This document shows positions 14,088-15,313 of a stretch of DNA of 64,000 nucleotides, one piece after another (the stretch's first letter is position 1; every line of letters starts with the position of its first letter). The DNA comes from Cupriavidus taiwanensis (GTDB taxonomy: Bacteria > Pseudomonadota > Gammaproteobacteria > Burkholderiales > Burkholderiaceae): the NCBI RefSeq assembly GCF_900249755.1, contig NZ_LT976853.1, positions 2,205,274 to 2,269,273 of the forward strand. Reading direction: 5' to 3'. The notes under the pieces were generated by a model that saw nothing but the letters and a program-made list of their open reading frames with translations, was not told the DNA's origin and made no database searches. Made by a program: the position numbers and the translations under genes.

Positions 14088-14465
14088 TCAGCTACGCGCG
14101 CACGCCTTGGCTTCGGCTTCCAGTTCCGTCGGCGTCAGCTGGGGAAACCAGGTATCGGTCTTGCGCAATTCCAGCGCCGTGCCGTCGGCCTGCGCCGTCA
14201 GAGAGATCAGGTAGGCGTACTGGTATTGCCCGTTTGCCGCGATCTGGCCGATGCGGATCTCGGTCTGGTTTTTCGCCGGCAGCTGGACCAGCGTAGCTTC
14301 ATCGCCGAGATTATTGCGCAGGCATTTCGCAACATCGGCCATCTTGGCCTGCGTCAGCAGGCGCATCGGCGGGCGTGCGCGGATATCCTTCTCGGAAGTA
14401 CCGGTGGCACACCCTGCCACCAGGGTTGCCATCGCTGCGCCAATCAGTGCCGTTCGAACCAACAT
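14088..14465 (-). CDS. Predicted lipoprotein, unknown function
   Basis: 125 residues with an N-terminal signal and lipobox (ATLVAGCATG, lipidated Cys19), so it should be membrane-anchored on the periplasmic side. The mature part contains one further Cys pair (Cys52 region KCLRNN and the C-terminal ACARS) and a predicted beta-rich middle (TEIRIGQIAANGQYQYAYLISL). The start at 14465 places the signal peptide; the frame to 14552 adds basic residues only. No domain is recognised. Its convergent neighbour is the 56-residue protein. Confidence 0.75.
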   Translation of the reverse strand: MLVRTALIGAAMATLVAGCATGTSEKDIRARPPMRLLTQAKMADVAKCLRNNLGDEATLVQLPAKNQTEIRIGQIAANGQYQYAYLISLTAQADGTALELRKTDTWFPQLTPTELEAEAKACARS

Positions 14466-14614
14466 ACCACCCCCGGGGAATGCAAAACGGCGCCCTTTGA
14501 CGTGCAGGTATTGTGGGCGCCGGGTGCGGATTTTAACCCGCGCAAGGGCCACGCGCCATCTCGACCTTTGCCATCAGCCAGCAACGGCGTTTGGCATGGC
14601 AAGGCGCTTACCAG

Positions 14615-14911
14615 TTACCAGCGCTTGCACTCGATCTTCTCTTCGAATTCCCCGTCGCGCTTCCACTCGCGCTCGATCAGGCAAGGGCCTTCGCGATATT
14701 TCTGCTTCTGCTCATAACCGCGCGGCCCGCCCTTGCACTTGCGCTCCTCTTTGTATTCACCATCGCGCTTTTGCTCGCGCTCGACCTCGCAGCCGCCGCT
14801 ACGGAACTTCTCCTTGTACTCGCCACGGCGATAATCGCGATCGTCGGCCTGCACCAGCGATGGCGTCATCAGACACAACAAGGAAACAGTAGCGGCGAGC
14901 GTCCGGAGCAT
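14615..14911 (-). CDS. Small secreted protein with four 18-residue Cys repeats
   Basis: 98 residues. The signal peptide is MLRTLAATVSLLCLMTPSLV with cleavage likely after QA. The mature part is a tandem array of four 18-residue units (about 26-43, 44-61, 62-79, 80-97), each with one Cys at the same place: Cys41, 59, 77 and 95, exactly 18 apart. Units 2 and 4 share ER-x-KRDGE-x-x-E; units 1 and 3 share Gly-x-Cys. It is highly charged (Arg, Lys, Glu) and would be exported to the oxidising periplasm, where the four Cys could pair. No family is recognised. The start at 14911 is preferred to the TTG at 14950. Confidence 0.7.
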   Translation of the reverse strand: MLRTLAATVSLLCLMTPSLVQADDRDYRRGEYKEKFRSGGCEVEREQKRDGEYKEERKCKGGPRGYEQKQKYREGPCLIEREWKRDGEFEEKIECKRW

Positions 14912-15098
14912 AGGGAAAATTCGGGAAGCAGAATGCGGCGAGCATAGCAACCGGGGTCGCCGGCCGCTGCATCAAAGCGTTACGCAGTAGCCGGGCGGAT
15001 TGCGTATGCGCGCATGGTGGCGAAGGTCTATGACCGCCGGAGGGAGCGGTAGTGAAGGCGACCCGCCGTGCCCCAAACCCTGACCGGGTCCGGAAAGC

Positions 15099-15126
15099 AA
15101 AACGGCGCCTGAATCAGGCGCCGTTT
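15099..15126 (-). terminator. Terminator downstream of tRNA-His
   Basis: AAAACGGCGCCTGA / TCAGGCGCCGTTTT, a perfect inverted repeat with T runs in both directions. It lies 13 bases past the tRNA 3' end on the minus strand. Confidence 0.8.
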
Positions 15127-15138
15127 TGCGTGGAATCT

Positions 15139-15215
15139 TGGGGTGGCTGATGGGACTCGAACCCACGACGACAGGAATCACAATCCTGGACTCTACCAAC
15201 TGAGCTACAGCCACC
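15139..15215 (-). tRNA. tRNA-His (anticodon GTG)
   Basis: 77 nt including an encoded CCA. The minus strand starts GGTGGCTGTAGCTCAG and has a GTTCGAGTCCC T-arm. The anticodon loop holds GTG within the CAGGA/TCCTG stem. The 5' end carries the extra G(-1) opposite C73 that marks tRNA-His in bacteria. A TATAAT at 15256-15261 (minus strand) is a likely -10 box, and a terminator follows at 15099. Confidence 0.98.
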
Positions 15216-15313
15216 GTAGAGGTCATCAGCGAAGCGCTGATCGACGAAAAACAAGATTATACAAACAGATTTCCGAGATGGCTAGTATCCCGCACAAAAA
15301 ATTTTGGTCATCG

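Follow-up and report, generated by a model that had tools for sequence, protein, structure and literature searches.

A putatively exported two-cysteine-module protein encoded at tRNA-linked sites in Cupriavidus

The gene at positions 14615-14911 of the window (the complete analysed stretch of 64,000 nt from Cupriavidus taiwanensis) is a real gene under purifying selection, and its product consists of a module of about 31 residues with one C-x17-C pair, which is present twice with a period of 36 residues and a short linker. The two-module gene sits at tRNA-linked sites, where it may either move with integrating elements or just be displaced by them. Most likely, the protein is an inducible envelope-binding accessory protein. 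The following features of the window are referred to throughout.

14615..14911, minus strand, two-cysteine-module gene (98 codons plus stop, ATG at 14911)
14846..14911, minus strand, putative signal peptide, residues 1-22 (cleavage site placed after VQA by eye)
14732..14824, minus strand, module 1, residues 30-60, with Cys41 and Cys59
14624..14716, minus strand, module 2, residues 66-96, with Cys77 and Cys95
14941..14949, minus strand, extended -10-like element TGCTATGCT
14967..14983, minus strand, upstream box GTAACGCTTTGATGCAG
15139..15214, minus strand, tRNA-His(GTG), co-directional, 228 nt upstream of the ATG

Gene and coding status

In 11 of the 12 comparisons of the window gene with its orthologues, dN (0.05-0.22) is well below dS (0.39-2.06), with values of 0.05 and 0.39, respectively, for the orthologue nearest by dS; therefore the frame is constrained and coding. 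For the twelfth comparison dN is 0.26 and dS was not computable. An alternative longer frame with a TTG start reaches 14950. Due to the fact that this frame would include the -10-like element and that M1 of the two-module protein is invariant in alignment A1, the ATG at 14911 is considered as the start.

The N-terminus, composed of MLRT, a hydrophobic stretch and VQA, resembles a signal peptide as judged by eye. Except for Cys13 within this signal peptide, the cysteines are located at positions 41, 59, 77 and 95. With 58% D/E/K/R, a pI of 8.4 and a C-x17-C pair that is kept, the original prediction of an exported, highly charged and disulfide-capable protein is borne out at the sequence level. 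An assignment as bacterial lipoprotein was rejected, since the residues ahead of Cys13 are SLL and this cysteine is not strictly conserved among the copies (it is W in the L003 protein); here, the lipobox was judged by eye.

The antisense frame of the two-module gene is likewise open and hydrophobic, which we take as a mechanical effect of Lys/Glu-rich codons read in reverse. Shine-Dalgarno-like motifs (AGGA, GGAG or GAGG) are absent from the 20 nt 5' of the ATG at 14911 and at the 12 orthologous loci (13 out of 13), and a pyrimidine-rich leader (60-95%) precedes the ATG in 13 of 13 two-module loci.

Repeat unit and cysteine spacing

Four units of 18 residues had been proposed for this protein. 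Equal spacing of Cys41, Cys59, Cys77 and Cys95, which was obtained in 0.08% of draws upon random placement of four cysteines in the 75 residues used, and the similarity of the 18-residue segments 2 and 4 (10 of 18 residues identical) as well as 1 and 3 (7 of 18) were confirmed, but the 18-residue unit itself was rejected: identity at lag 18 amounts to 9%, which is equalled or exceeded by 78% of shuffles. The duplication history suggested alongside, an 18-residue duplication followed by one of 36 residues, finds no support in the low identity of neighbouring segments (2, 2 and 1 of 18 residues for the pairs 1/2, 2/3 and 3/4, and 2 for the pair 1/4) and in an identity of 9% at lag 18 versus 46% at lag 36. 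The window protein fits a single duplication of one C-x17-C module, the two copies of which agree at 18 of 36 residues and, in the register used, at 67% of nucleotides.

Identities over the 31 residues of the module were counted on strings aligned by hand. When three other two-module proteins are compared with window module 1, 20, 21 and 26 positions are identical in their module 1 and 17-19 in their module 2; for window module 2, the numbers are 16, 22 and 24 in module 2 and 15-19 in module 1 of the same proteins. The two window modules agree with each other at 17 of 31 positions. Five single-module relatives have 18-21 of 31 residues in common with window module 1 and 12-17 with module 2. 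These identities suggest that the duplication may be old. Across 13 module rows, K, G, C, R, G, E, and C make up the seven invariant columns.

Cysteine intervals of 18/18/18 were observed in all 15 two-module copies of Cupriavidus. The expectation that homologues share this regular spacing failed for three two-module relatives of other genera, in which the intervals are 18/24/18 and 18/24/17 (glycine-zipper proteins) and 17/21/17 (Variovorax). In case of single-module proteins, the intramodule interval is 18 in 36 of 37 rows and 17 in one, with repeat fetches of the same gene included and only frames recognised by the search pattern counted. The Rhizobium single module has an intramodule interval of 17, and one of 15 is found in a divergent second copy in an alphaproteobacteria-like genome from the phylum search. 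Since 18/18/18 occurs only in the Cupriavidus copies, the intramodule pair is regarded as the widely kept feature and the middle interval as linker length.

Predicted structure and disulfides

AlphaFold2 modelling of the mature window protein, using an alignment of 8 rows in all (7 relatives as fragments; two rows are single modules), resulted in a mean pLDDT of 81.9 and a pTM of 0.61. Four of the five models lie at a mean pLDDT of 79.8-81.9 and the fifth at 65.8. Three strands per module are predicted, comprising residues 31-38, 41-47, and 53-60, and residues 68-74, 77-83, and 88-95. For one Advenella module with its tail the same three strands were obtained (pLDDT of 80-85 in the module and below 50 in the tail) in a model that is weak overall, with a mean pLDDT of 63 and a pTM of 0.41.

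The first hairpin turn lies between residues 47 and 53, and as their sum equals that of 41 and 59, Cys41 is placed opposite Cys59; in the second hairpin the sums 83 + 88 and 77 + 95 differ by one, the facing of cysteines being read in both cases from strand boundaries only. Due to this placement of each cysteine pair across a hairpin in the model, intramodule disulfides 41-59 and 77-95 are likely.

A Foldseek search against the PDB returned 661 matches at E ≤ 10 and none at E ≤ 0.001. The best VIA match is RseB, with a Z score of 6.9 in a range labelled common by the VIA output. The C-terminal part of RseB/MucB, at most a candidate fold relative, aligns with the model of the window protein in an antiparallel sheet (68 aligned residues, rmsd 4.0), at an identity of 10% and as part of a much larger protein.

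A role in metal handling or metal stress in the periplasm, in which the cysteines would act as ligands, has to be considered at this point. According to PMC7380067, PrsQ1 and PrsQ2 of C. metallidurans are predicted small periplasmic proteins whose deletion leads to loss of silver resistance, and by this description these CopQ-like proteins resemble the window protein in size, genus and predicted compartment. However, the upstream box of the two-module gene differs by eye from the regulator box of PrsQ1/PrsQ2, for which the same paper gives the AgrR consensus ATKACANNNNTGTMAT, and membership in the AgrR regulon was rejected on this comparison. Metal binding by the cysteines is also less likely because these are predicted to pair across the hairpin and the mature part is devoid of histidine. 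Altogether, we hold a metal-related role for quite improbable.

Relatives and distribution

For the window protein, 0 families were found in Pfam, NCBIfam, PHROGs, and PADLOC. A PDB sequence search yielded only two SEC13 chains at the chance level of E = 1, and the A1 profile found none. Thus, for these libraries, the earlier remark that no family is known for the protein still holds. Three single-module relatives gave no NCBIfam match and only Pfam matches below cut-off, namely Mfp-3 (E 0.043, residues 7-65), PXPV (E 0.0005, in the tail) and Defensin_propep (E 0.12, in the signal peptide). The module of the window protein is alignable to A3, its paired cysteines are 18 apart (17-18 in the group as defined here), and it follows a signal-peptide-like start; on these features the protein is assigned to the two-cysteine module group.

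PF13488 and PF05433 were matched above cut-off, and PF16998 (17 kDa antigen) below it, in two other Burkholderiales two-module proteins (L056 and L058), while neither a glycine zipper nor a 17 kDa antigen was matched by Pfam in the window protein. Similar to the window protein, both carry two C-x16/17-C modules after a signal-peptide-like start; in contrast to them, the window protein lacks a glycine zipper and terminates with module 2, and its interval between the modules is 18 instead of 24. Single-module proteins of Cupriavidus, Advenella, Variovorax, Rhizobium, and relatives have the same module and a signal-peptide-like start, but differ by containing one module only, by a Pro/Tyr-rich tail in Cupriavidus and, in several cases, by a start with ADPWKDESG. 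The occurrence of the module with proline/tyrosine-rich tails and with a glycine-zipper domain, as well as the charged composition, would be compatible with a passive structural or charge-buffering envelope protein that has no specific ligand. On the other hand, aligning seven two-module proteins yields 44 invariant columns, which together with the conserved upstream box suggest a specific, regulated role, and we consider a passive function unlikely.

A search of 60 Cupriavidus genomes gave matches at E ≤ 0.01 in 29 of them. The full two-module gene is present in 15 genomes and a single-module relative in 21, with some having both; these counts were made from match rows, and due to the two-module query single-module genes may be undercounted. 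One single-module gene of this set (G078) was left out of the fetched loci. Among 60 relatives sampled across the order, 17 had a match, all being Cupriavidus. With the module profile, and with the own genome counted at each level, the numbers of matching genomes are 13 out of 200 at family level (all Cupriavidus), 9 out of 399 at order level, 3 out of 369 at class level (one at E 0.008, likely a chance match), and 5 out of 299 at phylum level. Named carriers are Cupriavidus and Advenella (8 loci), three Variovorax plasmids, and one Rhizobium plasmid. The single-module gene is also present on two contigs filed as viral (L114 and L115); no phage genes were recognised on inspection of the ORFs listed around it, and the surroundings are not clearly phage.

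The two-module gene is lost in places. Decayed copies occur in two genomes, with a disrupted frame in G075 and a remnant of module 2 in G082 (L099 and L100), and both genomes are devoid of the upstream 16-mer described below.

Location at tRNA genes

Comparison of the flanks of 14 of the 15 two-module loci by blastn (L096 left out, one genome entered twice) revealed four contexts without shared flanking DNA, thus no fixed operon partner is apparent. A small lipoprotein-like gene is located downstream on the same strand (14088-14465), in a region common to one of these contexts only.

An intact tRNA gene was found within 250 nt in 7 of 15 two-module loci. Those for tRNA-His (2), tRNA-Pro (3), and tRNA-Ser (1) are all co-directional and upstream of the two-module gene, and the one for tRNA-Arg (1) is downstream on the opposite strand. 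For three further loci a tRNA-His gene is 2.6-3.0 kb off, and for five no tRNA was called in the roughly 12 kb fetched. In case of L088 and L092, the last 50 and 45 nt, respectively, of the same tRNA-Pro are situated about 145 nt upstream, a remnant of the kind expected from integration at a tRNA gene. Including fragments, a tRNA sequence occurs near the gene in 9 of 15 loci (window 14615-15214, L048, L088-L093, and L095), and no fragment is near it in L046, L047, and L096. Fragments of the 3' part of tRNA-His are located downstream of the gene in L045 and L095, two are kilobases or about 1 kb away in L046, and in the window none exceeds 10-nt matches.

As 55 tRNA matches were counted in 5.95 Mb, the share of the genome situated no more than 250 nt from a tRNA is 0.46% at most. 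The chance that four of five contexts have a member near a tRNA is about 2e-9, provided that the contexts are independent, that L096, the flanks of which are uncompared, is a fifth context by assumption, and given a distance limit set after seeing the data; the Variovorax locus L065 is outside the tRNA counts. Among the distinct single-module Cupriavidus genes fetched, 7 of 22 are within 250 nt of tRNA-Leu (6) or tRNA-Phe (1), compared to 1 of 14 loci checked in other genera. The single-module genes at tRNA-Leu, tRNA-Phe, or tRNA-Cys within this distance are those of L012, L015-L017, L022, L023, L028, and L052.

Patchy distribution at integration sites would be explained if the protein were a secreted or periplasmic inhibitor or immunity-type protein, with its modules binding to an incoming enzyme or toxin and thereby blocking it. 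The gene is present in 15 of 60 genomes of the genus and decayed in two others, is often adjacent to tRNA genes, where accessory DNA collects, and encodes a small, secreted, disulfide-capable protein. No match to a defence or other curated family was obtained, however, and the four contexts differ in flanking DNA with no fixed toxin partner apparent from the blastn comparison, so that we regard this explanation as conceivable but doubtful.

Upstream box and promoter

The sequence GTAACGCTTTGATACAGC is common to 13 aligned two-module loci with few changes and starts 70-76 nt upstream of the ATG. The distance from the box start to a subsequent TGnTATGCT-like element is 34 nt in 12 of these 13 loci and 35 nt in one. 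With up to one mismatch, the 16-mer box occurs once each, just upstream of the gene, in 14 of the 15 genomes with the two-module gene and in none of the 45 Cupriavidus genomes without it, compared to two places in 60 genomes for the reversed control; the pattern was derived from the same two-module genes on which it was counted. The window copy has one mismatch, and the fifteenth carrier (G034) contains GTAACCATTTGATACA instead.

Allowing up to 3 mismatches, the 17-mer matches 5 places in the own genome versus 4 for the reversed control, and thus a wide regulon was rejected; of the 5 places, just that at the two-module gene is down to 1 mismatch. A sigma-70 -35/-10 pair was rejected as well, since the 23 nt that separate TTGATA/TTGATG in the box from TATGCT are too many. 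A promoter scan of 14400-15300 predicted one site, upstream of the tRNA, and none at the two-module gene. At the locus, a terminator scan gave no hit and Rfam the tRNA only; a GC-rich hairpin followed by only four T is visible after the tRNA. Neither the box sequence nor four module peptides were matched in the text of the papers searched.

A related element is present upstream of some single-module Cupriavidus genes and missing from others, e.g., the second single-module gene of G080. A search of 5 genomes with its pattern gave a single match in each, located at such a single-module gene (control 0); as the pattern was made from the same genes, this shows only its rarity. OmpR-type tandem half-sites may be considered as a lead for the box element. 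A scan of 31 upstream regions detected the half-site pair in 8 of 9 two-module rows (that of the window was missed owing to GATGC) and in 5 of 9 single-module Cupriavidus rows (for L021 a different pair), but in none of the 13 rows of other genera, with a background of about 1% in 250-nt stretches; in 8 of the 31 regions the pair is followed by a -10-like element. The box itself is absent from several single-module genes and from all 13 rows of other genera.

Proposed function and significance

Considering the constrained gene, its repeated module, the box, and the location, we assign a probability of about 0.5 to a Sec-exported periplasmic protein of two modules with intramodule disulfides that binds the envelope and is expressed as an accessory gene at tRNA-adjacent sites from its own activated promoter. 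The protein would be non-enzymatic and consist of two three-stranded beta-meander modules, in which, after export, a disulfide would form inside each module between the cysteines facing across the second hairpin. Both modules together may constitute a charge-rich six-stranded sheet, which would most likely bind an envelope component or an envelope protein; we infer this role from export, from charge and composition, and from the fusion of the module to a glycine-zipper domain. Transcription would start from the gene's own promoter with an extended -10 and no -35 at normal spacing, and the conserved GTAAC-N5-GATACA box would occupy an activator position. Due to this arrangement the gene is probably induced under certain conditions and not constitutive.

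At clearly lower confidence, one may speculate about a one-gene accessory cassette of about 0.4 kb (box, promoter, and gene) that settled repeatedly beside different tRNA genes in one genus together with its own operator, one regulator serving only this family of secreted modules.

A small secreted two-cysteine module, absent from the curated libraries searched, is herewith defined in single, double, and glycine-zipper-fused forms, and the upstream box provides a testable handle on what switches the two-module gene on. If the tRNA-linked spread is true, it would represent an unusual case of a single small gene located with its own control element at integration hot spots with no obvious mobile element.
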